NCBI GenBank assembly: GCA_903821685.1
Contig: CAIJLW010000085.1
Span: forward strand, 1-45,860
From: an uncultured Sphingomonadales bacterium
GTDB lineage: Bacteria > Pseudomonadota > Alphaproteobacteria > Sphingomonadales > Sphingomonadaceae
Length of the DNA: 45,860 nucleotides
Reading direction: 5' to 3'
Within the stretch, counting starts at the first letter, position 1; each line of letters begins with the position of its first letter. The notes below the pieces were generated by a model that searched no databases, was not told the DNA's origin, and saw only the letters and a list, made by a program, of their open reading frames with translations. Of the stretch, positions 19,179-36,941 are shown piece by piece. The translations under genes and the position numbers were made by a program.

Positions 19179-19238
19179 CACACTCTCCAATAATTTACTG
19201 GTGCCTTTGTTGGCGCCGGTCATTGTCTCTCAATGTAT

Positions 19239-20387
19239 TTAACTTGTAGTTATCCAATCAGGGTCGGTCATTCCTACCTCAGCAAGAATATCCTCCCGAT
19301 CGGCATCGCGCTGCCACATTTTAGGCAGAACGACCTTTGTTTCGCCAAACCTAGGCGCTGGATGCGGTTGCATCCAGCCCCCCGATTCAACGTAGCTCCC
19401 CCTTGCGCGGTTGTGATTATGCTCTGGCGCCTCAGCCATCGTTACAACTTCGGTGTAACAACAGTCGCGATGTTGTAGTAAAGCCGTCCAGGCCTCGCGA
19501 GGAGCCGAAGAAAAAATCTCTCCTAACCGCACCTTCATTTTGGGCCAATTTTCCTGGTCAAGCTGCGCAGCGAACAGCGGGTCGTCGCCCAATTCCAGCG
19601 CTTCAATAAAGCGCGCATAAAACTGCGCTTCAATGGCCCCGATAGCGATCAGCTTTCCATCTGCGCAGGCATAGCTAGAATAAAATGGTGCGCCCCCGTC
19701 AAGTAGGTTCTGACTTGGCTCTTTTTCCCACATGGCATTGTGCTTTAGGGACCACATGCCAGCCATTAATGCCGCAGACCCTTCGGCCATGCTGCAATCA
19801 ATTACACGCCCGTGGCCGCTCTGTCGTGCAGCCAATAGAGCCGATACAAACCCGAAGGCGAGCATCATGCCACCACCGCCATAGTCACCGATTAGGTTTA
19901 GCGGCGGCATTGGCGGCTTGCCATCTTGACCCAGCGCCGCGAGGCACCCGTTAATCGATATGTAATTGAGATCATGTCCAGCAGTATGGGAAAGGGGCCC
20001 TTCTTGTCCCCAACCAGTCATACGTCCATACACGAGAGCAGGGTTCCGCTGCATTAAAGTCTCAGGCCCCAATCCCAGACGTTCGGCTACCCCCGGCCTA
20101 AAACCCTCAATCAGACCGTCTGCTGTTTCGGCAAGTCGCGCTACGATTTCAATCGATTCAGGACGTTTTAAATCCAATGTGATCGAACGTCGTGACCGCA
20201 GCAGAACATCGCATTGCTGCTCCTCTACATTAGCCCCAGGCCGATCTATGCGAATTACCTCGGCACCATGATCTGCAAGCATCATGCCGCAAAACGGAGC
20301 AGGACCGATTCCAGCCAATTCTATTACCCGCACCCCATCAAGAACCGGCTGTTTCAAATGGCAGTCAATACTCTGGGCACCACTCAT
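19239..20387 (-). CDS. alpha-methylacyl-CoA racemase (class III CoA-transferase family)
   Basis: Enzyme of 382 residues that interconverts the 2R and 2S forms of 2-methylacyl-CoA thioesters. The start VRVIELAGIGPAPFCGMMLADHG is the hallmark of the racemase branch rather than of CoA transferases. The catalytic triad known from the mycobacterial enzyme (His126, Asp156, Glu241) is found here as His138 in AGHDLNY, Asp168 in IGDYGGG and Glu253 in GAIEAQFY, each displaced by exactly 12. Racemisation is needed before beta-oxidation of isoprenoid side chains such as those of sterols and bile acids, because acyl-CoA dehydrogenases accept one isomer only. It is upstream of the Baeyer-Villiger monooxygenase by 60 bases. 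This is the strongest sign that the substrate carries a methyl-branched acyl chain. Confidence 0.92.
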   Translation of the reverse strand: MSGAQSIDCHLKQPVLDGVRVIELAGIGPAPFCGMMLADHGAEVIRIDRPGANVEEQQCDVLLRSRRSITLDLKRPESIEIVARLAETADGLIEGFRPGVAERLGLGPETLMQRNPALVYGRMTGWGQEGPLSHTAGHDLNYISINGCLAALGQDGKPPMPPLNLIGDYGGGGMMLAFGFVSALLAARQSGHGRVIDCSMAEGSAALMAGMWSLKHNAMWEKEPSQNLLDGGAPFYSSYACADGKLIAIGAIEAQFYARFIEALELGDDPLFAAQLDQENWPKMKVRLGEIFSSAPREAWTALLQHRDCCYTEVVTMAEAPEHNHNRARGSYVESGGWMQPHPAPRFGETKVVLPKMWQRDADREDILAEVGMTDPDWITTS

Positions 20388-20652: not shown

Positions 20653-21357
20653 CTAATCAATTGTAAATGTCTTCAAGGTCAATCGGCGAAACGCTTCAAA
20701 CTGCTTGGGCAGGTCGACATTGCTAGGGGCGACAAGCCACTGGTAGATAGTCCCAAAAATAAAACTGCAGAAACCAAATGCGTAGCATTCTGCGTCTACC
20801 GCAGTATCGATTTCGCCGCTTGCAATACCTTCTTCGACCCAGTGCGCGACGTCGCTGCGATAGATTTCATGATATGCTGCAAGATGATCGCGTACATCGT
20901 TGTGCGTGCTGATCGACTCAAACCAGAGGATATACATAGCCTGCATGTATTTGGAGTGGCTCGACAGAAAATCTTCGACCGCGCACAACGCTGCTAGGCA
21001 AGCCTGAACGCCGCCGCGTGTTCCAACCTTGTTAGCCAGCTCCTGGGTCCAGCTTGTATTGAAGTGCAGAACAAGTTGACCGAACAGCGCATCCTTCGAT
21101 CCGAAACGGCTAGATGCCAGCCCTCGAGAATAGCCGGCGCGTTCTCCGACGGCCTTCAGCGTCGTTGCATGTGTACCTTGTTCGACTATCAATTGCATGG
21201 CTGCATCGAACATCCGGGCATCAGATAGGGCCGTTCGTTCCGCTTGCGTGCGTCGACTGACGCGTGGCCTGACGCGTGTCTTGGGCAAAGCAGTTTGAAC
21301 GACCTCCGTTACCTCGCGAAGGGAAGCCTTGCCCTTCATCATGGGTAGCGCGCTCAT
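20653..21357 (-). CDS. TetR/AcrR family regulator (second)
   Basis: Regulator of 234 residues. A basic N-terminal tail of about 40 residues (RVRPRVSRRTQ) precedes the DNA-binding domain; the helix-turn-helix at about 65-86 reads TLKAVGERAGYSRGLASSRFG. The C-terminal part is a helical ligand-binding domain. Its start overlaps the stop of the CoA ligase (ATGA), making it the last gene of the operon that begins with the TonB receptor at 27008. Autoregulation of that operon is likely, and the palindromes at 27100-27120 and 20558-20578 are plausible targets. The inducer is probably a CoA ester or the free substrate, as in related catabolic TetR proteins, but that is inference. Confidence 0.9.
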   Translation of the reverse strand: MSALPMMKGKASLREVTEVVQTALPKTRVRPRVSRRTQAERTALSDARMFDAAMQLIVEQGTHATTLKAVGERAGYSRGLASSRFGSKDALFGQLVLHFNTSWTQELANKVGTRGGVQACLAALCAVEDFLSSHSKYMQAMYILWFESISTHNDVRDHLAAYHEIYRSDVAHWVEEGIASGEIDTAVDAECYAFGFCSFIFGTIYQWLVAPSNVDLPKQFEAFRRLTLKTFTID

Positions 21358-22985
21358 CGAGTGTCCTCAATCTTCTCAAACATAGACTTGCCGGTCGCAA
21401 ATGCCTCGCGCAGCGCCTGCTTGTCAATCTTGCCAACACTGGTCAGTGGTAGGCTATCAACATGTGCCCAATATTCAGGGATCCAGAAGCGTGCAACTCG
21501 ATCCTGTAAGGCGCGTCGTAGGCCCACAAAATCGGGCCTTTCGCCATCTAGTGTCGTAACAATTGCCAATGGCCGCTCTTCCCAACGCCGGTCGGGTACT
21601 GCGATTACTGCGGCTAGGTTAATACCGGGAAGGCTCGAAATGTGATTTTCGAGTTCCGCCGAAGGTATCCACTCGCCGCCTGATTTTATCAAATCTTTTA
21701 ACCGGTCTGTTACCTGCACATATCCGCGTTCATCAATCGTTCCAGCATCGCCAGTGTCCAGCCATCCGTCGTCGGTTAACACGCCACTCGAGCCAACGCC
21801 GTGATAGCCCCGCGCAATCCATGCACCGCGCAGTTGCAAGCGCCCGATGGTTTTGCCATCTTCGCTGAGACGCTTGCCATCGTCGTCGACCAAACGCACA
21901 CGAACGCCTGCGACAGGACGTCCGCTTTTGGCTCGCAAGCGACGCGCCTCTTCGTCCGATGCGTCGGCAGCGGGGTGAGACAGAACGCAAAGTGGGCTAG
22001 TTTCCGTCATTCCCCAACCTTGGATAAGCGGCACGTTCCAGCTTCGCTCAACCTCGGCGATGAGGCCTTCGGAAACTGCCGAGCCTCCCACCACGATGAC
22101 GCGAAAGCTTTGCATATCGACCGGGTCCTTGGCATCTATGCGGAGCAGGTCGTTTAAGATGGTTGGCACGGTGGCGGTAAAGGTAGGCGCTGTTCCGCGG
22201 ATCATTCGGCGGATCGCTTCAGGCTGCAGATTAGGGCCCGGCAGGACGAAATCTGCACCCGCGAGCCAGCCTGAATAAGGCAACCCCCAAGCATTGGCAT
22301 GGAACATAGGCGGCAGCAGTAAAATTTTATCGCTGTTACCTAACGCAAAGGCGTTTGTGGCCATCGATGCCAGGCTATGTAGGTATATCGTACGATGCGA
22401 ATACACGACCCCCTTCGGATTGCCTGTTGTTCCGGATGTATAACAGGTAGCGGCGGCTGCGGTCTCTTCAATATCGGGAAATTCAACAATCGGCTCATGG
22501 TCAGCGATAAAGTCTTCATAAAGCGTCCATGGCTTTTCAAGTCCCGCGAGCCGGGTTGCATTGCCGGTAACGAGGATGTGTTTAAGCGCGTCGAGCGAAT
22601 TGATTTGGGGTAGGAGGCCGGCAAGCAAATCGCCGTCGGCAATTAGAAAAGCATCACCGGCATCGGCCATGATGTAACGGACCTGATCAGGATGCAGCCG
22701 CAGGTTTAGCGTATGGAGCACAGCACCCATCGCCGGCACCGCAAGATACGCTTCGAAATGGGCGAAATCATTCCAGCTTAACGTTGCAACACGCGTATTT
22801 TTGTGCACGCCCGCCGACCGCAACGCCGTAGCAAGACGACGGGCGCGATTGGCTGTTTCGGCATAGCTTCGCCACGTCATCTGCTCGCCGTCGAATAGGC
22901 CTATGCGGCTTGAAGCATGAATGCGCTCGCCGTGGGCAAAAATTGCAGCGGTGCCGAGCGGCTCGTGCATCATGGTGGCGTCCAT
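21354..22985 (-). CDS. AMP-forming acyl-CoA ligase (second)
   Basis: Acyl-CoA synthetase of 543 residues. Motifs are TCYTSGTTGNPKGVVYSHR (P-loop), GWGMTETSP, the hinge DGWLDTGDAG, KDLIKSGGEWIPSAELE, and the C-terminal lysine segment TSVGKIDKQALRE. The pattern resembles medium/long-chain fatty-acid and DMSP-lyase-type ligases, which does not define the substrate. The start is the ATG at 22985, overlapping the kinase stop (TGATG); a TTG one codon earlier is less likely. The operon order is receptor, SDR, kinase, ligase, TetR. Pairing of a CoA ligase with an APH-fold kinase and an SDR resembles the levulinate (lva) pathway logic, where a 4-hydroxyacyl-CoA is phosphorylated. Confidence 0.92.
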   Translation of the reverse strand: MDATMMHEPLGTAAIFAHGERIHASSRIGLFDGEQMTWRSYAETANRARRLATALRSAGVHKNTRVATLSWNDFAHFEAYLAVPAMGAVLHTLNLRLHPDQVRYIMADAGDAFLIADGDLLAGLLPQINSLDALKHILVTGNATRLAGLEKPWTLYEDFIADHEPIVEFPDIEETAAAATCYTSGTTGNPKGVVYSHRTIYLHSLASMATNAFALGNSDKILLLPPMFHANAWGLPYSGWLAGADFVLPGPNLQPEAIRRMIRGTAPTFTATVPTILNDLLRIDAKDPVDMQSFRVIVVGGSAVSEGLIAEVERSWNVPLIQGWGMTETSPLCVLSHPAADASDEEARRLRAKSGRPVAGVRVRLVDDDGKRLSEDGKTIGRLQLRGAWIARGYHGVGSSGVLTDDGWLDTGDAGTIDERGYVQVTDRLKDLIKSGGEWIPSAELENHISSLPGINLAAVIAVPDRRWEERPLAIVTTLDGERPDFVGLRRALQDRVARFWIPEYWAHVDSLPLTSVGKIDKQALREAFATGKSMFEKIEDTR

Positions 22986-24016
22986 CAAGCGATACCTTTT
23001 ATCTGTGCAATGCGTTGGGCTGCATCGAGTAATGCCGGCACATCCTGCTCAAGGCCACGTTCATAAGGTCCGTCTACTTGACCATTGCGAAACAAAACAT
23101 AGGCGCCCTCGACGATGACGGCGAGACGCCATAGTGCAAAAGCTTGAAAGTACGAAAGATGTGCGATTGAGAGCCCTGTTGAGCTTGCCCAGCGCTGCGC
23201 CAATTCACCACCGCCAATCACACCCTTAACATTGGACACGCGCTGCACAAATGCGAAGCCGAGTGGAAGACTTTCATCGCGATTCCACATTGCCGTGACG
23301 AGCCCGACGTCGACCAGTGGATCGGCCAACGTTGCCATTTCCCAGTCGAGTATTGCCCTGACTTTTGGTTCGATCGGGTCCATCAACACATTGTCGAGGT
23401 GGTAGTCGCAGTGGACGATCCGCACCGCCTCGGGTTCTGGAACGTTTTCGGCGAGCCAAGTTCCGAGCACTTCGACCAGCGGTAGATCGCGGACTTTGCT
23501 GGCTAAGCGCACCGCACGCCACCGTTCGATCTGGCGAGCGACAAAATTCCGCGCCTTCTTTACATCGCCAAGCCCTTCAGGAACTGGCGTAATTGCGTGT
23601 ACTTTGGCGAGGGCATCTATCAGTGCGATGCCGACAGCATCGATAGTTGCGATGCTGTTCGAATAAGCGGGGGGCAAAGTGTCGGTAATCGCTGTTCCCG
23701 GCACGAAGCGCGTGAGAGAAAATGGGGCGCCCAATATTTCCACATCGTCGCAATATAATATGGGTTCGGCAACCGGCGCATTGCCCGCGATGACCGAGAT
23801 GAAGCGAAATTCGCGCGAAATACCGGCGCCGGCAAGATCAGATACCGTATTGGTAGGCGGGTGACGAAGCACCAATGGACCGCTCGCGGTATCGACAAGG
23901 CTGGTCACATTGGCGTTGCCGCCCGTCAACTTACGAACGATTCGTACTTCGGTAAATCCGGCATTCCCCTCCAGCCAGCGGCAAAACCGCTCGGCCGGAT
24001 CGCTTACAGTCGGCAC
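22985..24016 (-). CDS. APH-fold phosphotransferase, acyl-CoA kinase-like
   Basis: Kinase-like protein of 343 residues from the chosen start. The nucleotide-binding part contains KLTGGNANVTSLV and GPLVLRHPP; the catalytic loop HCDYHLDN is at about 202-209 and the metal-binding DWE at about 224, both intact, so activity is expected. Proteins of this group are annotated as aminoglycoside phosphotransferases but are usually found with acyl-CoA enzymes; LvaA of levulinate degradation and the N-terminal half of ACAD10/11 phosphorylate 4-hydroxyacyl-CoA. I chose the GTG at 24016, with GGTGG just upstream, giving a 13-base overlap with the SDR; the frame is open to 24076. Coupled by TGATG to the CoA ligase. 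Confidence 0.85.
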   Translation of the reverse strand: MPTVSDPAERFCRWLEGNAGFTEVRIVRKLTGGNANVTSLVDTASGPLVLRHPPTNTVSDLAGAGISREFRFISVIAGNAPVAEPILYCDDVEILGAPFSLTRFVPGTAITDTLPPAYSNSIATIDAVGIALIDALAKVHAITPVPEGLGDVKKARNFVARQIERWRAVRLASKVRDLPLVEVLGTWLAENVPEPEAVRIVHCDYHLDNVLMDPIEPKVRAILDWEMATLADPLVDVGLVTAMWNRDESLPLGFAFVQRVSNVKGVIGGGELAQRWASSTGLSIAHLSYFQAFALWRLAVIVEGAYVLFRNGQVDGPYERGLEQDVPALLDAAQRIAQIKGIA

Positions 24017-24738
24017 AGCAGTCCACCATCGTTGGAGATTGTTGAGCCAGTCATATAAGGCGATCCTGCCACCCACCAGACGACATTGGCCAGTTCGTCG
24101 GCAGTGCCTTCGCGGCCAAGTGGAATACTCTCCACGAGTTTTGCTTTGGCACGAGGCGATATGCCCGCCGTCATTTCCGTTGAAACCATGCCAGGGATTA
24201 CGAGATTAACCCGGACGCCCCGACGCGCAAGTTCAACGGCCAACACCTGCGTAAGTCCGGCCAGTCCTGCTTTTGACGCACCATATGCAGCATCGCCGGC
24301 AAAGCCCCGAAGACCGACCACGGCTCCAATATTAACTATCGATCCTCCCTCACCCAAATATGGCAAGGCGGCCCGTACGCAGTTCAGAGGGCCGGAAAGG
24401 TTGGTATCGATAACGTCCTGCCAATCACCCTGAGAAAGAGAACCAATTAGCCCGCCACGATGCAGGCCCGCATTGTTGACGAGAACATCAATGCCACCCC
24501 AACGCTCGGCAACTTGCTCACAGGCGCGCGCTAAGGCTGACGGATCGGTTACATCGGCGATAAGGCCTATAGCATTATCACCAATTATCCGGGCTTCATT
24601 CAGAACGTTCTCCCCGCGAGCAAAAAGGGCAACGCTATCCCCATTGCGCGCGGCGAGCTTGGCGATCGCGAGGCCAAGGCCTCGCGATGCACCAGTTACT
24701 ACCCATCTCCGTGTCTCACGCTTTGACTGCGTTGTCAT
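24004..24738 (-). CDS. short-chain dehydrogenase/reductase (FabG-like)
   Basis: Classical SDR of 244 residues. TGASRGLG is at 15-22, then VNNAG, a serine in IVNIGAVVG replaced by the IGAVV context (the usual catalytic serine is not obvious here) and the active-site YGASKAG. VIPGMVSTEM and the C-terminal ISNDGGLL are normal for FabG-like reductases. The start ATG 24738 has AAGGA at good spacing and lies 11 bases after the TonB receptor stop. Putative role: oxidation or reduction of a hydroxy/oxo-acyl-CoA. The apparent absence of the serine (NIGAV where NISS is common) is worth noting, though some active SDRs show variation there. Confidence 0.87.
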   Translation of the reverse strand: MTTQSKRETRRWVVTGASRGLGLAIAKLAARNGDSVALFARGENVLNEARIIGDNAIGLIADVTDPSALARACEQVAERWGGIDVLVNNAGLHRGGLIGSLSQGDWQDVIDTNLSGPLNCVRAALPYLGEGGSIVNIGAVVGLRGFAGDAAYGASKAGLAGLTQVLAVELARRGVRVNLVIPGMVSTEMTAGISPRAKAKLVESIPLGREGTADELANVVWWVAGSPYMTGSTISNDGGLLCRL

Positions 24739-24749
24739 TGCAGTCCTTC

Positions 24750-27008
24750 TCAGAACGACTGGGTCACAGCAATGCCCCATGTCCGACTTGGACGAGGTGC
24801 CGCATAGCTCCAGATGCCCTGAACGTCGTAGCCGATCGTCCAGCCCTTTTCATTGGCCAAATTCTTGCCGAACAAGCTAACCGTAGTTTTGTTTAGTCGC
24901 GCATTGATAGATGCATCCACTAGGAACTGGCCACCGTTACGCAGGTTTGGATTGTTAAGGAAGGTGATTTCATGACCGCCAATGTAGCGGATATCGCCTG
25001 TAATCCAGCCTGAAGCATTGTTCCCGATGTCAGCTTCATAAGTTCCTCCAGCACTCCATGTCCATTTTGGTGCGCGACGGATTTTTAGGAACGAGGCATC
25101 TACAGGTCTACCTGTGCTGTAGATGTCACCAAAAAAGTCCTTATATTTCGCGTCAAGATAGCCAAGATTTCCGTTGAAGGTGAAGCCATCAAAGAGCCTC
25201 GCTGTCAAATCAAGTTCGAACCCCTTGAACTCAGCGGATGATGCATTGATCGTACGGTTCTCGCGTCCCGTTGATGTACCAGGCGCTGGAACGTCCAGAT
25301 CCTGCTGCATATCATCATATTTCATTATGAAAGCTGAGCCGTTCAGGCGAACCCGGTTGTCCGCAAATTCGGTTTTGAAACCGACTTCATAATTGTCGAG
25401 CGTTTCAGGATCATAGGGGATAGTTGCAGCACTAAGGGTCGCAGGACGCCCATTGAAGCCGCCTCCACGATAGCCGCGTGACCACAAACCATAGACCATA
25501 GAATCATCGGAAAGTTCGTAGCGGAGCGAAGCGCGCGGTGTGAACTTTTTCCAGCTTTCCTCGACGGGCTTAGCCATACTTATGGTTCCAGGAAGCGTTG
25601 CGACTGGGTTCGCTTCGATCAGAGTTCCATAGATTTTGACTGGCAAGTCATTGACAATGCTAGACTTCTTGTCCTTCGTGTACCTCGCGCCAACAGTTAG
25701 CGTAAGCTTTTCAGTTAGATCATAGTCGCCTTCGCCATAGATTGCCCATGACTTGTTAGTTTGAGTTACATCTTGCGCACTGGTAAGCAATGGCGGTCCT
25801 GCAAACCCGATGTAGTTCTTCAGATTGATCGTATATTGCGAATCCCACAGATAGGCGCCCAGAACAAACGTTGCCGGGCCTGTTCCGCCCTTAGTGAGGC
25901 GCAATTCGTTAGTGGTCTGGCGCCAACGCGCCGGCCGATCAGTGTGATACAGCGTAAATGGTGTGGTATCGAAATCCTGCGTGATGGTTTCGTCTGTTTT
26001 TAGCCAGCCGAGAATATAATCTAGCTGCATATCGGAACCGACATCGTAGGTCGCTTTGGCGACTGCCATGTCGAGCTTAAATGTCGCGTTTTTGTCGAGC
26101 CGTCCGTCAGAGACGCTCACATAGCGATCCCCAGATGTGGGTACGCCGGGCTTTGGTGAGCACTGAGCATATGCCGCGCAAAACAAGTCGGTCGGCTTAT
26201 TAACCGCAAGCAATTGTGGCGGATCCTGCTTAGTTTTCTGATGATCGTAGCTGACTTGGATGTCGAGATTATCGGTCGGCTCGAACAAGAGTGCACCTGA
26301 AACGGCGTAGAACTCAGACCGCTGCCCCGGTTGTTTAAAGAATTTATTATACATATAGCCGTCGGACTTCTCATAGGCGCCGCTGACTTTGACCGCTACA
26401 TTATCTGAGAGCCCAGTGCTGACAACGCCCTCGACCTTCGATGTGTCAAACCGACCATAAGTGGCGCGGGCCTTTCCGGTAAGGTCATAGGTTGGTCGCG
26501 AGCGGGCGAGGTTGATTACGCCGCCGGTGGCGTTGCGTCCGAACAACGTTCCTTGTGGCCCACGCAGCACTTCAACACGATCAATATCGATTGCCTTGAG
26601 CAAACTGCCCGAGCTCTGCCCGATGTAAATATCATCAAAAACAACGCCGACTGCTGGATCGACTGACTTTTCGACATCCCCGACGCCGATGCCGCGGATA
26701 TATATAGCTGCAACGCCTCCCGGACCCTGCTGCGTGTCGTCGATAACAATATTGGGCGAAGCGCCGGCGAAGTCGCGAACGTCGGAGTCAAAGCGCCTTT
26801 CCAGTTCGTCAGCGGATAGCGCGCTGACCGATGCGGGAACATCCTGCATGTTTTCGTCGCGCTTACGGGCAGTCACAGTGATTTCTTCAAGCCCCTGCGA
26901 TTCCGCCTGCGTCTCCGTGCTTGTCTCTTGCGCCCTGACTAATGTCGCGGGATATAAAATAATTGCAGCAGTTGTAAGCAGCTGCGTGATTTTTATACCA
27001 TTTATCAT
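24750..27008 (-). CDS. TonB-dependent outer-membrane receptor (second)
   Basis: Outer-membrane transporter of 752 residues. A signal peptide ends near PATLVRA, then a TonB-box-like EEITVTARKRDEN, a plug with VEVLRGPQGTLFGRNATGGVI, and a beta-barrel ending GIAVTQSF with the expected terminal phenylalanine. The frame is open to 27050; the ATG at 27008 has GAGAGG seven bases before it and is chosen. First gene of a five-gene operon (receptor, SDR, kinase, ligase, TetR), and divergent from the ACAD operon at 27449. Only distantly like the receptor at 6858, so the two may take up different molecules or different forms of one. Confidence 0.93.
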   Translation of the reverse strand: MINGIKITQLLTTAAIILYPATLVRAQETSTETQAESQGLEEITVTARKRDENMQDVPASVSALSADELERRFDSDVRDFAGASPNIVIDDTQQGPGGVAAIYIRGIGVGDVEKSVDPAVGVVFDDIYIGQSSGSLLKAIDIDRVEVLRGPQGTLFGRNATGGVINLARSRPTYDLTGKARATYGRFDTSKVEGVVSTGLSDNVAVKVSGAYEKSDGYMYNKFFKQPGQRSEFYAVSGALLFEPTDNLDIQVSYDHQKTKQDPPQLLAVNKPTDLFCAAYAQCSPKPGVPTSGDRYVSVSDGRLDKNATFKLDMAVAKATYDVGSDMQLDYILGWLKTDETITQDFDTTPFTLYHTDRPARWRQTTNELRLTKGGTGPATFVLGAYLWDSQYTINLKNYIGFAGPPLLTSAQDVTQTNKSWAIYGEGDYDLTEKLTLTVGARYTKDKKSSIVNDLPVKIYGTLIEANPVATLPGTISMAKPVEESWKKFTPRASLRYELSDDSMVYGLWSRGYRGGGFNGRPATLSAATIPYDPETLDNYEVGFKTEFADNRVRLNGSAFIMKYDDMQQDLDVPAPGTSTGRENRTINASSAEFKGFELDLTARLFDGFTFNGNLGYLDAKYKDFFGDIYSTGRPVDASFLKIRRAPKWTWSAGGTYEADIGNNASGWITGDIRYIGGHEITFLNNPNLRNGGQFLVDASINARLNKTTVSLFGKNLANEKGWTIGYDVQGIWSYAAPRPSRTWGIAVTQSF

Positions 27009-27099
27009 GATCATTCCTCTCCAAAAACGGGCGCATGATTTGTTCGCCATCCCCCCTGCGGTAGGCGCAGTTTACGCTCCGATTTTCAGGATGCCTCAC

Positions 27100-27448: not shown

Positions 27449-28741
27449 ATGGCATGGGATTTTTCAAACGAGCCTGAATTTGAACTGCAACTGGAATGGA
27501 TGCGCGGGTTTGTTGCCGAAGAGATAGAGCCACTCGATCTTGTGTTTCGCGATCCTGGGGCGCATGTCGACCCGCGGTCTCGAGCAGCGCGTATCATGGC
27601 GCCGCTTAAGGAAGAGGTCAAAAAGCGCGGCCTTTGGGCGTGCCATCTCGGCCCCGAACTCGGCGGAAAAGGCCTTGGCCAACTGAAGCTTGGGCTGATG
27701 AACGAAATCCTGGGCCGCAGTCGCTTTGCGCCTACCGTTTTTGGCACCCAAGCACCTGATACAGGTAATGCAGAGATACTTGCGCGTTTTGGTACGCCCG
27801 ATCAGAAAGCTAAGTATCTCCAGCCACTTCTCGATGGTGAGATTGTTTCCTGCTATTCAATGACCGAACCACAGGCTGGGGCTGATCCCGGCGAATTCAC
27901 GTGCAAGGCGCATCTAAATGCCGGCGAATGGGTAATTGAGGGCGAGAAATGGTACGCTAGCCACGCGTGCATTGCTGAGTTCCTTATTGTCATGGTTATC
28001 ACCGACCCAACCGTTCCAGTGCATGAGGGATCGACGATGTTAATCGTTCCGCATGATACGCCGGGGCTAGAGATAATACGTAATACGGCAGTTGGTCCAA
28101 AGGATGAGATCGGCAGTGGGGTCCACGGCTATCTTCGTTTCACCAACTGCCGCGTGCCTGAGGCGAACCACCTTGGTCCAATCGGCGCTGGCTTTAAGGT
28201 CGCTCAGTCGCGCCTTGGAGGCGGCCGTATACATCACGCAATGCGGACTGTCGGCATGTTGAATAAAGCGATGGAATATATGACAGAACGCGTCGTTAGT
28301 CGCACTACCAAAGGCGAGCGTCTGGCCGACAAGCAGATGGTGCAAGAAAAAATCGCCGATAGCTACACACAGATTCTGCAATTTAGGTTGCATGTCCTGT
28401 ATGCAGCATGGCTTCTCGACCGCGATCAGACTTATACCCGCCCAGTGAGACGCGAAATCAGCGCAATCAAAGCCGCCATGCCCGGCGTGCTTAAGGACGT
28501 CGTGTATCGCGCACTGCATCTGCACGGCTCACTCGGCATGTCGAACGAAACGCCGTTGATGGATATGTGGCAATATGTGCCAGAAATGGGGATTGTCGAT
28601 GGACCTACCGAGGTGCACAAAATCGGTGTGGCGAAGGACATATTGAGAGATGTTCAGCCGTTCGCAGGGCCTTTCCCGAGCTATCATGTGCCAGCCCGTC
28701 TCGCCGCAGCGCGAGAAAAATTCGCCGCCTATCTTGACTGA
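27449..28741 (+). CDS. ACAD10/11-like acyl-CoA dehydrogenase
   Basis: FAD-dependent acyl-CoA dehydrogenase family enzyme of 430 residues. FAD/substrate motifs are SCYSMTEPQAGADPGEF (134-150) and EGEKWYASHA; the C-terminal part has LHLHGSLGMSNETPL. Where medium-chain dehydrogenases carry the catalytic glutamate in a YEGT motif, this protein has IVDGPTEVH with Asp384, the pattern of the ACAD10/11 branch. ACAD10/11 and LvaC act with an APH-fold kinase to remove the 4-hydroxyl group of 4-hydroxyacyl-CoA via a phosphate. Here the APH half (31400) is a separate gene three genes downstream. First gene of the plus-strand operon and divergent from the receptor operon. Confidence 0.9.
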   Translation: MAWDFSNEPEFELQLEWMRGFVAEEIEPLDLVFRDPGAHVDPRSRAARIMAPLKEEVKKRGLWACHLGPELGGKGLGQLKLGLMNEILGRSRFAPTVFGTQAPDTGNAEILARFGTPDQKAKYLQPLLDGEIVSCYSMTEPQAGADPGEFTCKAHLNAGEWVIEGEKWYASHACIAEFLIVMVITDPTVPVHEGSTMLIVPHDTPGLEIIRNTAVGPKDEIGSGVHGYLRFTNCRVPEANHLGPIGAGFKVAQSRLGGGRIHHAMRTVGMLNKAMEYMTERVVSRTTKGERLADKQMVQEKIADSYTQILQFRLHVLYAAWLLDRDQTYTRPVRREISAIKAAMPGVLKDVVYRALHLHGSLGMSNETPLMDMWQYVPEMGIVDGPTEVHKIGVAKDILRDVQPFAGPFPSYHVPARLAAAREKFAAYLD

Positions 28742-28765: not shown

Positions 28766-29233
28766 ATGAAAGAGACGTCTGATATCGAACAACGTTTAGA
28801 CCGTGTTGAGAGCCGGTTTGCGATGCATGATTTGGTTAGCGACTATTGCCACGGCTTTGACAAGCGCGACTGGGAGCGCTTCCGTGCAATATGGTGGCCC
28901 GATGCCATATGGGACATTGGCCCCCCCTTTGGCACCTTTGAAGGCACTGACGGCATCGCGCATGTAACCAAAGATGTTTTGTGGGGGGCTTGGCTTGCAT
29001 CCAGCCACTTCACCACCAACCTCGTCGTTTCTTTTGAAGGTGATGACCGCGCGACCGGCTTATGTGACGTGGACTGTATTGGCACAACGTCCGATGGTCA
29101 GGCGCAAACTGTCAGCGCGACTTATTTTGATACGTTCGAAAGGCGTGACGGCGTCTGGAAGATCGCGCACCGCAAGGTTAAGATGCACCACTTCAATCCG
29201 CTTCCCGGCGTCACCCTGTCGCCGCCTGCATAG
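28766..29233 (+). CDS. SnoaL/NTF2-fold protein resembling LinA dehydrochlorinase
   Basis: A 155-residue cone-shaped alpha+beta-barrel protein of the SnoaL-like/scytalone dehydratase group. By memory it lines up along its whole length with LinA, the gamma-hexachlorocyclohexane dehydrochlorinase of sphingomonads (156 residues): DKR near residue 32, IWWPDA (43-47), VLW, TNL, ERRDGVWK (125-132), and the NPLPG/PP tail. LinA's catalytic dyad Asp25/His73 corresponds to Asp32 and His81. The fold also includes bile-acid and hydroxysteroid dehydratases. Expected chemistry: base-catalysed elimination (HCl or water) from an alicyclic ring. The gene lies 24 bases after the ACAD gene and 8 before the hydrolase, so it belongs to this operon. 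In this context dehydration seems likelier than dehalogenation. Confidence 0.85.
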   Translation: MKETSDIEQRLDRVESRFAMHDLVSDYCHGFDKRDWERFRAIWWPDAIWDIGPPFGTFEGTDGIAHVTKDVLWGAWLASSHFTTNLVVSFEGDDRATGLCDVDCIGTTSDGQAQTVSATYFDTFERRDGVWKIAHRKVKMHHFNPLPGVTLSPPA

Positions 29234-29241
29234 GAGCTCTT

Positions 29242-30045
29242 ATGGCTTATTTTGAAACTGATACTGGTGGCCGAGTTTACTTTGAGCACCATCGCGCGCC
29301 CGGATTGCCGGTCGTACTGATCCATGGTTGGGGCATGTCTGGAGATTATTGGGCTTCGGCTGTCGAGGGGCTCCTTGCCGCGGGCCATGGCGCCATTGTG
29401 ATTGATCACCGTGGCTGCGGTCGTTCCGATCGGGATTTTGCCGACATGTCGATTGCTGCGATTGCCGGCGATGTTGCTGCGATCATCGATCGCTGCGATG
29501 TACCGCGTGTTGCGTTAAATGGGTGGTCCTTGGGCGCCGCCGTAGCAGTTGCGGCTGCTGCGTTGCTTGGCAATCGTGTCGCAGGACTTATTCTGACCTG
29601 CGGGGCATCGCCTCGTTATGTGCAAGGCGACGGATTTCCCCACGGCGGCATGCCTGAAGACGTACTCGCAATCGCTGGCGCAATTACCGCTGACCGCCCC
29701 GGCTTTTTCCGGGCGCTGGCTGAGGGTGCATCGGGTGAAGGTGCTAGCGAGGCAATGATCGGTTGGGTCGAGCGAGGGTTCTTGGCAACTGCGCCGCGCG
29801 CGAGCGAAACACTTGCCGGTCTTGCAACGCTTGATCAGCGCGAACTGCTGGCATCCTTTGCTTTCCCTGTTCTGTCGATTGGCGGAGCAAGAGATGCAAT
29901 CGCCGACCCTGCGATTGCAGGCTTCGCTGCAAACTGTGCTGCGAATGGCACGCTTCTGACAATGGACACAGGACATTCCCCACAACTCGAGAACCCCGCT
30001 GCTTATAATGAGGCATTGCTCGCATTTTTAAGGAATTTAACCTGA
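29242..30045 (+). CDS. alpha/beta hydrolase
   Basis: Serine hydrolase of 267 residues. The oxyanion-hole motif is IHGWGMSGDYW, the nucleophile elbow GWSLG places Ser at residue 96, the acid probably lies in IGGARDAI and the histidine in DTGHSPQLE, so the triad is complete. The cap region is medium sized, as in esterases, lactonases and meta-cleavage-product hydrolases. It lies 8 bases after the LinA-like gene and its stop overlaps the start of the OYE-type gene (TGATG). With a Baeyer-Villiger monooxygenase nearby, opening of a lactone or ester is a reasonable role, but a C-C hydrolase cannot be excluded. Confidence 0.9.
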   Translation: MAYFETDTGGRVYFEHHRAPGLPVVLIHGWGMSGDYWASAVEGLLAAGHGAIVIDHRGCGRSDRDFADMSIAAIAGDVAAIIDRCDVPRVALNGWSLGAAVAVAAAALLGNRVAGLILTCGASPRYVQGDGFPHGGMPEDVLAIAGAITADRPGFFRALAEGASGEGASEAMIGWVERGFLATAPRASETLAGLATLDQRELLASFAFPVLSIGGARDAIADPAIAGFAANCAANGTLLTMDTGHSPQLENPAAYNEALLAFLRNLT

Positions 30046-31187
30046 TGTCTACTGCACCGCTTGATGATTTAGCCACCTTGCTTGCTCCGCTAAATACACC
30101 CTTCGCGTGTAAATCGCTAAAGGCCCCTAATCGTTTCTGCATGGCCCCCATGTCACGCTATTTTGCTCCTGGGGGCGTACTGGGAGAAGATGGTGCAGAA
30201 TATTACCGCCGTCGTGCCGCTGGCGGTGTCGGTACGATTATAACCGAGGGCACTGGAGTAGCGATTGACCATGCCGTTGCCGCGGACAACATCCCGCTAT
30301 TTGACGGCGAGGAACCGCTCGCCGGATGGAAGGGCGCAATTGATGCCGTCCACGCCGAAGGCGGAATGTTCGTTCCGCAATTATGGCATGTCGGCGGCTG
30401 TATGGATTTCAACTTCCCTGATTCACCACACGCTCCGTTGGTTAGTCCGTCAGGCTTCGCCGGGCCTGACATCGAGGGTGGTCGCGCCATGACCCAACAG
30501 GATATTGATGATACTGTCGCCGCCTTTGCAAAATCTGCGCGCTTGGCAAAAGAGATTGGATGCGACGCAATAGAATTGCATGGGGCCCATGGGTATATTT
30601 TCGATCAATTCTTCTGGGATCGAACCAACCTAAGAAATGATCGCTATGGCGGGCCGGACATTGCGGACCGCGCCACATTTGCGGCCGAGGTTGTTGCCGC
30701 CTGCCGAGCAGCGGTAGGCGAAGATTTTGCCATCATCTTTCGTGTCTCGCAATGGAAGACCTATGACTATGATGTAAAACTAGCTGCCGATCCGGACGCG
30801 CTGCACCGCTGGCTCGACCCGTTGGCCCGCGCTGGGGTGGATATTTTCCATGCTTCGCAGCGCCGTTTTTGGGAACCAGAGTTCGAGGGGGACCACAAAA
30901 ATCTTGGTGGTTGGATCAAGGAGATTACGGGTAAGCCAGTGATCACTGTAGGATCGATCGGTATGGATCGAGATTTGATGCAGGATTTTGTCGAAGGCGT
31001 GTCGTCTCCGATGTTGGGCCGTCTGGAGGATCTTGTAAAGATGTTCGAGCGCAACGAGTTTGACCTCGTAGCACTGGGCCGGGTTCTTCTTGCGGACCCT
31101 AACTGGCTGGAAAAGGTAGCGCAGGGACGTGTTAACGAGCTCACCCCCTATAATCGCGATACGGCGCTCAAGAACTACGAGCATTAA
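30045..31187 (+). CDS. NADH:flavin oxidoreductase, Old Yellow Enzyme family
   Basis: FMN-dependent TIM-barrel ene-reductase of 380 residues. APMSRYFAPGG begins the barrel, IELHGAHGYIFDQFFWDRTN holds the substrate-binding histidine pair and RNDRYGG is the usual phosphate loop. HASQRRFWEPEF and VALGRVLLADPNW close the family pattern. It lacks the [4Fe-4S] cluster cysteines and C-terminal domain of 2,4-dienoyl-CoA reductases and BaiCD, so it is the short form. Probable reaction: reduction of an activated C=C bond in an enone or enoyl intermediate. Last gene of the ACAD/LinA-like/hydrolase unit; the following kinase begins 212 bases later. Confidence 0.9.
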   Translation: MSTAPLDDLATLLAPLNTPFACKSLKAPNRFCMAPMSRYFAPGGVLGEDGAEYYRRRAAGGVGTIITEGTGVAIDHAVAADNIPLFDGEEPLAGWKGAIDAVHAEGGMFVPQLWHVGGCMDFNFPDSPHAPLVSPSGFAGPDIEGGRAMTQQDIDDTVAAFAKSARLAKEIGCDAIELHGAHGYIFDQFFWDRTNLRNDRYGGPDIADRATFAAEVVAACRAAVGEDFAIIFRVSQWKTYDYDVKLAADPDALHRWLDPLARAGVDIFHASQRRFWEPEFEGDHKNLGGWIKEITGKPVITVGSIGMDRDLMQDFVEGVSSPMLGRLEDLVKMFERNEFDLVALGRVLLADPNWLEKVAQGRVNELTPYNRDTALKNYEH

Positions 31188-31399
31188 CAATCCGATAGCC
31201 TAGTTCCACGTGGATGACGACGCGAAGGTGCCAGTTTTAAGTGTCGTCGGCGGGTATCCGCGCCTGAAAAGGTGCGCTTTTCCCTTATGTCGAAGCAGGT
31301 GTCGACCAAGAGCGGCAGCGAGATTGTGCATCAAGTTATGTGCATGATGATTGGCCTGACCCTGTTACGCCTGTAAATTCTGGTTGTGGAGTTGATTTT

Positions 31400-32470
31400 A
31401 TGATTACGGGCACAGATGCAAACATGGGCACAACGCCTGTTAGGTTAGAACATCTGTTCGACGAGCAGGCACTGGTCGCCTGGATGGTTGGAAATGTTGA
31501 AGGCTTTGCTGGGCCTCTCACAGTTGAACAATTTAAAGGCGGCCAGTCTAATCCGACTTATAAGCTTATCACGAATACAAAGTCGTACGTATTACGCCGC
31601 AAGCCACCGGGTGATTTGTTAAAGGGTGCACATGCGGTTGATCGAGAAGCGCGAATTTTATCAGCGCTTGGAACTACCAGTTTTCCTGTGGCTAAGGTTT
31701 ACGGTCTTTGTGAAGATGATAGCATTATCGGCACTTCGTTTTTTATCATGGAGATGGTTGAAGGGCGTATTTTTTGGGATGCCACATTTCCTGATGTCGA
31801 AACAGGCGGCCGCGCAGCCTATTTTGATGCTATGAATGCTACAATTGCGTCCCTTCATAGAATTGATCCCGCTTCGGTTGGCCTTTCTGACTTCGGCAGG
31901 CCCGGCAATTATTTCGAGCGACAGATTGCGCGTTGGTCGAAGCAGTATCTCGAAGATGCCGATGCAGGGCGTGATACAGAAATGGACAAATTGGTCGAAT
32001 GGCTTCCGGCTAATATTCCGCTCGGCGATGAGACTAGCATCGTTCACGGCGATTTTCGCTGCGATAACATGATATTCCATCCGACAGAACCACGCGTGCT
32101 GGCAGTTCTGGATTGGGAATTGTCAACACTAGGGCACCCACTCGCCGACTTCGCCTATCATGCGATGATGTTCCGGATGCCTCCAGACATCGTAGCGGGG
32201 TTAGGGGGGGCTGACTTAGCTGATCTCGGAATTCCATCTGAGGCCGACTATCTGGCCGCATATTGTCGCCGTACTGACCGTGCGTTGATTTCTGAGGCCG
32301 ACTATGCCTTTTATGTAACATTTAATTTTTTCCGACTTGCCGCAATTTTCCACGGTATCAAAGGCCGGGTAATTCGCGGAACAGCTGCATCCGCACACGC
32401 GAAAGAGCGCGCTAAAAGCTTTCCAAAACTTGTCGCTCTCGCCCGTGAAAGTATGGAGGCCTGCTTATGA
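31400..32470 (+). CDS. APH-fold phosphotransferase, ACAD10/11 kinase-half-like
   Basis: Kinase-like protein of 356 residues. FKGGQSNPTYKL near residue 45-56 is the signature of the ACAD10/11-associated APH group; the catalytic loop HGDFRCDN is at about 216-223 and DWE at about 239. The frame is open to 31340, but ATG 31400 has GTGGAG eight bases upstream and begins the conserved part. In animals this domain is fused to an acyl-CoA dehydrogenase (ACAD10/11); here the matching dehydrogenase is the separate gene at 27449. A second, more distant kinase lies at 22985. Reaction inferred: ATP-dependent phosphorylation of a hydroxyacyl-CoA. A short open stretch after the stop (from 32467) is not recognisable. 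Confidence 0.88.
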   Translation: MITGTDANMGTTPVRLEHLFDEQALVAWMVGNVEGFAGPLTVEQFKGGQSNPTYKLITNTKSYVLRRKPPGDLLKGAHAVDREARILSALGTTSFPVAKVYGLCEDDSIIGTSFFIMEMVEGRIFWDATFPDVETGGRAAYFDAMNATIASLHRIDPASVGLSDFGRPGNYFERQIARWSKQYLEDADAGRDTEMDKLVEWLPANIPLGDETSIVHGDFRCDNMIFHPTEPRVLAVLDWELSTLGHPLADFAYHAMMFRMPPDIVAGLGGADLADLGIPSEADYLAAYCRRTDRALISEADYAFYVTFNFFRLAAIFHGIKGRVIRGTAASAHAKERAKSFPKLVALARESMEACL

Positions 32471-34602: not shown

Positions 34603-36645
34603 TTAGTCGGCCAGCTCAAACACGTACACCATGTTGCCCCCGCTCGGCTGGTAGATGTCCGGGCTTTGTTGCGCGGTCACCAGCTTGAACACGCCCATGC
34701 CCGTGGTCACGGCGATGTACTGCTTGCCACTTACCGCGTAGGTGACAGGGTAGCCGTGGGGCGCCGAACCAAGGCGTGTTTGCCAGACCACCTCGCCGGT
34801 CTTCACGTCGAAGGCCTTGAAGTACCGATCCAAGTCGCCAATGAACGCCAGGCCACCACCGGTGGTAAGTGCGGAGGTCATGAACATTGCGCGCTGCGTG
34901 TGTGACCAGCGCGGCTTTAAAGTCGTGACATCAATCGCACTCAGGCGCCCGAGCATGCCGTCGGTCCCGGGCATGGGGTGAACGGTGGATTCGCCGCCAT
35001 AACCACCGCCGCCTTCTTTGCGCTCTACGGTACGGCCAGTCATGTCGACGCACAATTGGTGCAACGGTAATAACAGCAAGTTGCTGGGCGGGTCATAGGC
35101 ACTGGCTTGCCAGTTGTGGCCGCCATAGATGCTCGGACAGACCGACACCTTGTCATCCACCCCTGCATTCATGATGTCATCGCGGTATTCCACGCGACCA
35201 GTGCTATGGTCGATGGATTTGAAGACGTTTTGATAAAGCGTTTCAGTGACAGCGACAAACTTGCCGTTACGACGGTCGAGTTTCCATAACAGGCCATCCT
35301 TGCCCGCAGTGAGGACGAATTTGTCCGACCCGATATCCACTAGCACGCGCTCGAAGCCGGTTTCCATGTCCAGTGTTTCACCAGGTACGTGCTGAAAGTG
35401 CCATTGCAATTTGCCGGTGCGTGGGTCGAGTGCCAGTGTCGAGTTGGTGTAAAGGGCGGCATCGGCCGCAGTCATACCGCGGCTGGCCGCTACCCAAGGT
35501 TTCGCCTGGGCGGTGCCGAAGTAATACAGGTTCAACTGAGGGTCATAGCTACCGGTAATCCAGTTGTCGCCGCCGCCGCGCAATTCAACGGGCTGACCCG
35601 CCCAGCTGGCATCATTGGGGTCGCCCGGCAGTGCGATGGTGGAGGTGCGCCAAAGTTCTTTGCCTGTGCTTGGGTCGTGTCCGGTGATAAAGCAACCGGA
35701 CTTCTTATAGCGTTCGCAGCCGTTGATACCGCTGACCACAACGCCGCCGGCTATGAAAGGCCCTGCTGTGTGCGTGTAGCCTTGATGATAATCTGCCTTT
35801 ACTGTGCGCCACAGCAGTTTGCCGGTGCGCGCGTCCAGCGCTACAACGGCTGCGTCGTAAGTGGCCAGAAACACCTTGTCCTGATACAATGCGATATTGC
35901 GTGTAGGGCCACCGAGCGTGCGTGAATCTTCGGGATATGGGTAGGCATATTCCCACAGCAGACTGCCGCTGGCGGCGTCGATTGCCTGCACCACGTTGCC
36001 CGGATGGGTGAGGTACATCACGCCGTCATGGATGAGCGGTGTGGGCTGATTGCTGCCGTCTTTCATCGTCATCGCCCAGGCGAGCCGCAGGCGCCCCACC
36101 GATTTGGTGTTGATGCTAGACAACGGGCTAAAGCCCTGCCCATCTTCAGTGCGGCGCCACTGCAGCCAGTCGGCGGCGGGTGGGTTTTGCAGCAGTGCAT
36201 CGGTGACCGTTGACGTAGCTGGTGTTTCGCGGTTCACCCAACCCCCGGCACTTTGGGCTGCTTCCATGATGCCGGCTGCCCCTTGCCAAGTGGTTTCTTC
36301 CGGTTTTAGTTCGCTTACCGCAACGCCGTTACTGCGCAGCAGGAAGGCTGCGATGCCGTTGACTACGGAAGGCGGCGCGTTAGCTGGTACGTTCATCGAC
36401 ATCATGCTGCGTATGAAGGTGGCTAAGGGGGGCACACCGCCTTTGCCCCATCGGGTGCGGAACCGCTCGCCGGTTAAAGCAACACCATGCGCACCGCCCG
36501 CCAGGTTTGCATTGTGGCATTCCGCGCAGTAGTTTTGGTAGGCCACACTGCCAGCAGAGGTGGTTTCAGCATTGGCCTCGGCCGACAGAAGCACACTTAC
36601 GGCCAGCAACATTAGGCTGATAAAAGGCCAGCGAATAACCCGCAT
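34603..36645 (-). CDS. quinohaemoprotein (PQQ) dehydrogenase with N-terminal cytochrome c
   Basis: Periplasmic dehydrogenase of 680 residues. A signal peptide ends near SAEANA, the haem c motif CAECH is at 40-44, and an eight-bladed PQQ propeller follows (DWLQWRRTEDGQGFSPLSSI, MYLTHPGNVVQAIDAASG, WITGSYDPQLNLYYFGTA). The two cysteines of GCERYKKSGC are separated, unlike the vicinal pair of the dehydrogenase at 9348, so the two are different subfamilies. The frame opens at 36699, but ATG 36645 lies six bases after GAGGAG and begins the signal peptide. G+C looks higher than in neighbours (two hand-counted 60-base lines: 63% and 58%, against 50% in the kinase at 31621). This and the adjacent decayed DNA suggest separate acquisition. 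Confidence 0.9.
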   Translation of the reverse strand: MRVIRWPFISLMLLAVSVLLSAEANAETTSAGSVAYQNYCAECHNANLAGGAHGVALTGERFRTRWGKGGVPPLATFIRSMMSMNVPANAPPSVVNGIAAFLLRSNGVAVSELKPEETTWQGAAGIMEAAQSAGGWVNRETPATSTVTDALLQNPPAADWLQWRRTEDGQGFSPLSSINTKSVGRLRLAWAMTMKDGSNQPTPLIHDGVMYLTHPGNVVQAIDAASGSLLWEYAYPYPEDSRTLGGPTRNIALYQDKVFLATYDAAVVALDARTGKLLWRTVKADYHQGYTHTAGPFIAGGVVVSGINGCERYKKSGCFITGHDPSTGKELWRTSTIALPGDPNDASWAGQPVELRGGGDNWITGSYDPQLNLYYFGTAQAKPWVAASRGMTAADAALYTNSTLALDPRTGKLQWHFQHVPGETLDMETGFERVLVDIGSDKFVLTAGKDGLLWKLDRRNGKFVAVTETLYQNVFKSIDHSTGRVEYRDDIMNAGVDDKVSVCPSIYGGHNWQASAYDPPSNLLLLPLHQLCVDMTGRTVERKEGGGGYGGESTVHPMPGTDGMLGRLSAIDVTTLKPRWSHTQRAMFMTSALTTGGGLAFIGDLDRYFKAFDVKTGEVVWQTRLGSAPHGYPVTYAVSGKQYIAVTTGMGVFKLVTAQQSPDIYQPSGGNMVYVFELAD

Positions 36646-36695
36646 GAACATCTCCTCTAAATATAATTTGAGAATGCTCGCTTGTCTGCAACCAG

Positions 36696-36941
36696 TCAAC
36701 GATGAAGTTGCTCTAACGATGACTGCGCAGTTGAGCCCAGCCGGCCTGCAGCTTGCCTAAGATACTGCAATCTGATCGACCATGCGCAAGGTGCTGAACC
36801 GGCGGAGATAAGTGCGGCAAGTCGCCCGTCCGTCAGTTGTCTGAACTGTGCAGACACCTCGGCTTCTGCACCAGCATCCAAGGCCCTGGCGAGTTCGTCG
36901 AATATGAAAATGCTGCCAGAAATTACTTTGGCGAGGGTCAT
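36696..36941 (-). CDS. doubtful small ORF upstream of the PQQ dehydrogenase
   Basis: An 81-residue open frame starting MTLAKVISGSIFIFDELARA, in the 565-base gap between the PQQ dehydrogenase and the gene at 37211. The first 45 residues look protein-like (amphipathic, DELARALDAGAEAEVSAQF), the rest less so, and the ribosome site is weak. It ends 50 bases before the dehydrogenase start. Could be a small gene or the remnant of a larger one; not recognised. Confidence 0.25.
   Translation of the reverse strand: MTLAKVISGSIFIFDELARALDAGAEAEVSAQFRQLTDGRLAALISAGSAPCAWSIRLQYLRQAAGRLGSTAQSSLEQLHR

Follow-up and report, generated by a model that had tools for sequence, protein, structure and literature searches.

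A LinA-family protein in a conserved catabolic operon of an uncultured Sphingomonadales bacterium as a putative dehydratase of alicyclic hydroxyketones

The dehydrochlorinase LinA starts the breakdown of the pesticide lindane, the gamma isomer of hexachlorocyclohexane (HCH), and is well known as an enzyme active on a recent synthetic compound. In the available text of PMC4478539, linA is treated as a gene spread by horizontal transfer that has a single origin and a conserved flank; no source is named there. The question of what such a source may look like is raised by a DNA stretch of 45,860 nucleotides (the window) from an uncultured Sphingomonadales bacterium (contig CAIJLW010000085.1), in which a LinA-like gene belonging to a different pathway hints at the origin of LinA. 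On balance, we favor the view that its product is a natural member of the family that gave rise to LinA, and that it most likely eliminates water (or performs the reverse reaction) beside the ketone group of an alicyclic ring. Rather than dehydrochlorinating HCH, it would best be read as a dehydratase (or hydratase) of alicyclic hydroxyketones. Among the matches listed from the open PMC literature (subscription papers were outside the scope), no description of this LinA-like family was recognized, and the available text of the Hsh3 paper (PMC12175502) does not mention LinA.

The open reading frame (ORF) spans exactly 28766-29233 on the forward strand and encodes 155 residues that match the Pfam family SnoaL_4 (1.3e-25); the opposite strand, translated in a single register, contains stops. 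As had been proposed from the sequence, the motifs DKR, TNL and ERRDGVWK and the PP tail align with LinA, as does IWWPDA, for which LinA's own version is IWWDDA. The identity to five LinA copies is 37.7-40.4%. When all PDB chains were searched with phmmer, the three LinA entries were returned at 2.5e-32, 5.8e-32, and 8.2e-30 and the next entry at 4.9e-8, which places the protein far above the SnoaL background; LinA is its nearest characterized SnoaL protein in this comparison among PDB structures only. The fold predicted for the single chain matches that of LinA at 1.2-1.4 Å. The gene is under purifying selection, with dN/dS values of 0.067, 0.090, and 0.058 against three relatives and of 0.028 against a fourth for which dS is near saturation; a fifth comparison was dS-saturated and gave no value. 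The genome containing the window has 2.12 Mb and is 96.6% complete, and a copy of the protein with 97% identity occurs in a close metagenome-assembled genome labelled Sphingorhabdus. Base composition (linA 53%, window gene 55%, relatives 44-70%) gave no information on where linA was acquired from.

The active site was compared across 41 aligned proteins, where the nearest set comprises the 25 non-LinA proteins of the two nearest branches and of the pair that is sister to LinA; with this number, the earlier statement that LinA has few known relatives did not hold. Asp32 and His81 align with Asp25 and His73 of LinA, as predicted. The catalytic dyad is present, but it is not specific to LinA: it is common to all 41 proteins and, being general to the aligned family, is a weak clade marker. 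Arg129 of LinA is catalytically essential and Lys20 possibly has a similar, less critical role, according to the available text of PMC3174995. The four LinA proteins carry Lys or Gln at position 20, which corresponds to Tyr27 of the window protein (Table 1). Tyr27, Cys28, Trp76, and Val138 are invariant in the 25 nearest proteins, and LinA differs at all four (Lys/Gln20, Leu21, Phe/Tyr68, Ala/Gly131). In the alignment, a Tyr five residues ahead of the Asp is also found in structures 3b8l and 3ef8. BaiE uses Tyr30, Asp35, and His83, with the same spacing. Given this shared pattern, the protein looks, as far as its sequence tells, like a dehydratase of the NTF2 fold, with LinA as the member that changed.

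The family was collected by a scan of GTDB genomes that gave 168 pattern matches and 84 relatives, the best 80 of 84 being retained. Its distribution is patchy, given that 8 of 396 genomes of the window's order match a LinA query at E<=1e-18 (including the window genome and one 98% LinA copy), and that 9 of 61 near-relative genomes match the window protein at E<=1e-10, three of them (window genome included) at 92% identity or more. Trees were built on 61 and 41 rows from ORFs with at least 53 bits and fewer than 260 residues, excluding duplicates (L001, L002, L003, L004, L022, L034) and a truncated linA piece (L048); the smaller tree also omits near-copies (L012, L039, L040, L043), L017, L047, and weaker rows of the first, and the branch orders agree. 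The sister of LinA is a pair formed by a Sphingomonas Root720 protein and a paralogue of the lindane degraders MM-1 and RL-3 (support 100/98). Next come eight proteins of window-type operons (85/88), which are not resolved as one clade, and then a 15-row branch linked to cyclohexanone dehydrogenase (CDH) (86/90). The window branch is thus placed, by sequence, as probably the next nearest to LinA after the sister pair. The MM-1 (plasmid pISP0) and RL-3 paralogues, carried besides linA, are near-identical (10004-10447 in L011; 2605-3048 in L039), with 49% identity to the window protein and 43% to LinA; the MM-1 annotation names only the NTF2 family.

The neighbors named in the original prediction are real: acyl-CoA dehydrogenase (ACAD), LinA-like, hydrolase, and Old Yellow Enzyme (OYE) genes form a tight run with gaps of 24, 8, and -1 bases, and a gene for an APH-fold kinase lies 152 bases further. 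The order divergent TonB receptor, ACAD, LinA-like gene, hydrolase, and OYE is retained in all eight window-type loci (L020 being cut at the receptor end). LinX is a short-chain dehydrogenase/reductase (SDR) encoded beside linA. A LinX-like SDR (56-60%) stands between receptor and ACAD in five of the eight loci (L023, L110-L113) and is missing from that place in the window, L020, and L021. In four of the five whole genomes searched with LinX (G366, G412, G142, G071), the gene that matches best is this SDR, two genes ahead of the LinA-like one, at 284-313 bits versus 186 bits for the highest other match. In Root720, LinX-type SDRs flank the LinA-like gene on both sides (57 and 62%), and one truncated copy (58%) follows the MM-1 paralogue. 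LinX matches reach only 39% in 51 control loci, which are weaker SnoaL matches of the same scan. A figure legend of PMC4478539 states that linX is not necessary for HCH degradation.

A second linkage involves CDH, for which matches were found in 23 of the 41 family loci searched and none in the other 18, window included. All 15 loci of the CDH branch have a CDH-like gene upstream on the same strand. It stands directly before the LinA-like gene in nine (gaps of -4 to 42 bases); in six, one small ORF intervenes (gaps 407-479), which is part of a longer frame in L035 and which in L033 shows a CxxCH motif on visual inspection and matches nothing in Pfam. The structures nearest to the L029 protein are 8am3, 8am6, and 8am8 (3e-120 to 1.7e-119), which are the CDH of Alicycliphilus denitrificans according to the available text of PMC10966990, followed by 3-ketosteroid dehydrogenases at 2.5e-37. 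Four Pseudomonas loci combine the CDH family, two SDRs, and the LinA-like gene, and any CDH match occurs in 4 of the 51 controls, at most at 27%. A search of eight genomes at E<=1e-20 found CDH beside the LinA-like gene in G050 and G077, in G366 and G412 a match of 50% on another contig together with a weaker one (38% and 35%), only a 36% match on another contig in G007, and none in the window genome (G000), G071, and G142.

The lindane loci themselves were mapped in five cases (L013, L018, L040, L041, L115), leaving out L048, L102, and plasmid hit H5. A truncated CDH relative, with 45-51% identity to the copies of the CDH branch, follows linA in the first four, at a distance of 326 bases when the ORF start is used (428 with the annotated start in L013), while in the fifth, B90A, IS6100 is found in place of CDH. 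Among 22 CDH proteins (L114 excluded), the Tyr195 column holds 16 Tyr, 4 Leu (all beside linA), and 2 gaps, and the Tyr376 column 21 Tyr and 1 gap. The truncated relative, an FAD enzyme (6789-8048 in L013), ends near IS6100 in L013 and L018. The ACAD was also tried as a shared gene of linA loci and rejected: the ACAD beside B90A linA, itself a strong ACAD11 match (8e-137), finds its best match in the window genome on contig C122 (69%), with the window ACAD second at 35%. No LinA-like match was present on this stretch of C122, where an APH-fold kinase relative was found together with SDRs that reach about 34-35% to LinX and to the SDR of B90A.

The reaction that we infer, with its substrate, direction, single-residue roles, and pathway order, would be the following. 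Water would be removed from a beta-hydroxyketone on a ring, with His81, paired with Asp32, taking or giving the proton alpha to the carbonyl, and with Tyr27 and Arg136 handling the leaving hydroxyl and the oxyanion. The OYE would reduce the enone, for a net loss of the ring hydroxyl as in bile-acid 7-dehydroxylation, and the flavin monooxygenase, alpha/beta hydrolase, CoA ligase, CoA transferase, and the ACAD11-like/APH-kinase pair may open and degrade the ring. The ancestral alicyclic eliminase or dehydratase role proposed originally is partly supported by these results.

Several observations weigh against this assignment. The branch that joins the window clade to LinA (85/88) is below the strict mark, and the approximately unbiased test retains LinA with the CDH branch (p 0.123) and LinA with the window group alone (p 0.211), so that only the first step, LinA with the Root720 protein and the paralogue, is firm. 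SDR, OYE, and ACAD are generic neighbors, and the ACAD linkage fails the best-match test, the window ACAD not being orthologous to the gene beside linA. A LinX orthologue is missing from the window genome (best match 33%, elsewhere in the genome), as is any CDH match at E<=1e-5, although the same query did match G050 and G077; the CDH evidence, therefore, comes from the sister branch. In the truncated CDH beside linA, the aligned Tyr195 column holds Leu, several contigs of the CDH branch are short and show gene order only near the LinA-like gene, and the 51 controls are not a random draw. To our knowledge, no activity is known for any family member other than LinA.

That the window protein is itself an HCH dehydrochlorinase, a wild LinA removing HCl by an E2 mechanism, is very improbable, even if the identity, the predicted fold, the dyad, and the equivalent of the essential Arg129 are all in favor of it. 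LinA's residues at the four invariant positions are replaced, and the protein lacks the combination of Lys20 or Gln20 with the LinA pocket. Only 4 of the 11 cavity residues named in the available text of PMC3507683 (K20, I44, L64, V94, L96, I109, A111, F113, A131, C132, T133) are identical (I44, L64, V94, A111), which also counts against the preferred assignment. The window SDRs that were compared reach at most 38% to LinX and 37% to LinC (no search was made for linB or the lower lin genes), and the spread and divergence of the family would seem far older than HCH manufacture. A weak promiscuous activity toward HCH may still be present. A hydroxysteroid dehydratase of the BaiE/Hsh2 type, with the OYE acting as a BaiCD/BaiH-like reductase, is improbable as well: a single-sequence search finds no BaiE at E<=10, the structural identity is 14-15%, and the partner gene of the sister branch is nearer to CDH (3e-120) than to 3-ketosteroid dehydrogenase (2.5e-37).

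The main rival concerns direction and overlaps with the preferred assignment, differing only in that the protein, as a Michael hydratase, would mainly hydrate a cyclic enone formed by an ACAD- or CDH-type desaturase, before ring cleavage. CDH yields 2-cyclohexenone, whose hydrated product is the next substrate in Alicycliphilus (available text of PMC10966990). Dehydratases are reversible, and the CDH gene stands immediately before the LinA-like gene in 9 of 15 loci. Nonetheless, we know of no NTF2-fold Michael hydratase of cyclohexenone, an ene-reductase is part of the window operon, and CDH has no match in that genome, which leaves this direction rather unlikely. The position of the gene between the ACAD11-like gene and the hydrolase, with an APH kinase downstream, would also suit a protein of the CoA part of the pathway, namely a hydroxyacyl-CoA dehydratase, an isomerase, or a non-enzymatic SnoaL protein. 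We consider this equally as improbable as the hydroxysteroid dehydratase, on two weak points taken from the available texts: LinA, the nearest known relative, binds a small ring in a hydrophobic barrel cavity (PMC3507683), and an ACAD10/11-type pair would already remove a 4-hydroxyl by phosphorylation and elimination (PMC11342911, PMC12440821).

The surroundings of the putative hydroxyketone dehydratase are collected in Table 1. The window ACAD matches 4hr3 (putative ACAD) at 1.5e-69 and ACAD11 at 2.5e-65 to 2.1e-63, the next entry being at 4.2e-39. A relative of the flavin monooxygenase comes after the OYE in L110 and L111, and the pyrroloquinoline quinone (PQQ) dehydrogenase has matches of 57-68% in five CDH-branch loci, of 34% and 22% in two more, and in none of the 51 controls. 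Promoter and terminator scans gave no signal (7 and 7 sites, versus 4.8 and 6.1 in shuffles).

Table 1. Features of the window around the LinA-like gene, with codons of the active site
Feature	Position	Strand	Basis
LinA-family SnoaL/NTF2-fold protein, 155 residues, proposed alicyclic dehydratase/hydratase	28766..29233	+	Pfam, PDB search, alignment, tree, structure model
Tyr27 codon (LinA Lys20/Gln20)	28844..28846	+	Tyr in 37/37 non-LinA rows, 0/4 LinA rows
Asp32 codon (LinA Asp25)	28859..28861	+	Asp in 41/41 rows
His81 codon (LinA His73)	29006..29008	+	His in 41/41 rows
Arg136 codon (LinA Arg129)	29171..29173	+	Arg in 40/41 rows; exception B90A LinA1, Leu
Acyl-CoA dehydrogenase, ACAD11-like	27449..28741	+	Pfam; PDB match
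Alpha/beta hydrolase (arylesterase/haloperoxidase-like)	29242..30045	+	Domain and homology matches
Old Yellow Enzyme family ene-reductase	30045..31187	+	Domain and homology matches
APH-fold kinase, possible partner of ACAD11-like enzyme	31340..32470	+	Pfam; pairing suggested by available text of ACAD10/11 papers
TonB-dependent receptor, divergent from operon	24750..27050	-	Pfam; 61-98% in seven other window-type operons, cut short in L020
SDR oxidoreductase	24004..24780	-	Pfam
Second APH-fold kinase	22985..24076	-	Pfam
AMP-binding acyl-CoA ligase	21354..22988	-	Homology
TetR-type regulator	20653..21357	-	Homology
Family III (CaiB-type) CoA transferase	19239..20387	-	Homology
Flavin monooxygenase, FMO-like, putative Baeyer-Villiger role	17508..19223	-	Homology
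PQQ-dependent alcohol dehydrogenase	34603..36699	-	Pfam; matches in CDH-branch loci

Further genes were observed around these loci. In the window, two Rieske ring-hydroxylating oxygenase alpha subunits (5347-6699 and 11271-12485) flank a TonB receptor and a PQQ protein, as part of a larger catabolic region. The B90A locus beyond linX (L115, 9583-22135) contains an ACAD11-type gene, E1 alpha/beta and lipoyl proteins, an AMP-binding ligase, XdhC, molybdopterin-binding genes, and a TonB receptor sharing 58% identity with a receptor close to the LinA-like gene of Root720. In L033, L035, and L038, the LinA-like gene is followed by genes for a luciferase-like monooxygenase and for a radical SAM protein of 737-791 residues whose C-terminal region is of the CofH type, a pair (Pfam seen in L033 only) hinting at F420-dependent chemistry. 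A CoA-transferase-family protein of 297-298 residues is found near the gene in L026, L027, L031, and L036, adjoined in the last three by a second one of 274-320 residues; these proteins, which we take to be reminiscent of the ring-opening IpdAB, had no NCBIfam match at 1e-20.

For LinA, we tentatively raise the possibility, somewhat doubtful as it stands, that the linA locus is a piece, decayed and rearranged, of a natural operon for alicyclic ketones (LinX-type SDR, LinA-like dehydratase, and CDH), with LinA derived from a Tyr-containing ring dehydratase that lost the Tyr and changed at three or more further pocket positions, all invariant in its relatives, and with living relatives, the window protein among them, that keep a latent HCH elimination. 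The LinA variants were polarized by comparing LinA1 of B90A with the TKS copy, taken as type 1. Gly23, Cys96, and Tyr113 of LinA1 agree with the family in 25 of 25 nearest proteins and Thr71 in 17 (the remainder having Ser), while Asp115 and Arg129 of type 1 agree in all 25; if the proposal is true, these four residues of LinA1 and two of type 1 would be ancestral. At positions 20, 68, 126, and 131 the family agrees with neither variant, and at position 133 Met is found in 13 of 23 rows and Gln in the sister pair. The gain is a concrete natural family, with its linked genes and with pocket substitutions that can be named, and with it an outgroup for reconstructing ancestors, which makes the origin of a recent enzyme activity directly testable. 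It also provides enzyme candidates for dehydrating rings and, should a latent activity exist, for cleaning up HCH.

Among known systems, the bile-acid 7-alpha-dehydratase BaiE (4leh, 4l8p) is set apart by its low structural identity to the window protein; profile A2 alone matches it, at 1.5e-5. Scytalone dehydratase (3std) and the putative one in 3ef8 share the fold, with structural identities of 15% and 19%, and 3ef8 also has the Tyr five residues before the Asp. The A. denitrificans CDH (8am3) is a relative of the partner gene of the sister branch, in which both catalytic Tyr are kept; it lies upstream of 3-hydroxycyclohexanone dehydrogenase genes, with no LinA-like gene mentioned in the available text of PMC10966990, and was not found in the window genome. 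In ACAD10/11, a kinase plus a dehydrogenase act on 4-hydroxyacyl-CoA (available texts of PMC11342911 and PMC12440821); the window resembles this system in having an ACAD11-like dehydrogenase with APH-fold kinases nearby, as separate genes whose pairing is presumptive. LinA (3a76, 3s5c, 5kvb) differs from the window protein in the residues aligned with Tyr27, Cys28, Trp76, and Val138 and in its gene neighbors, the window protein belonging to a conserved catabolic operon. It resembles it in 38-40% identity, in fold, in the equivalents of Asp25/His73 and Arg129 and of Trp42, Ile44, Leu64, and Val94, and in the linkage to LinX-type SDRs seen in the sister operons.
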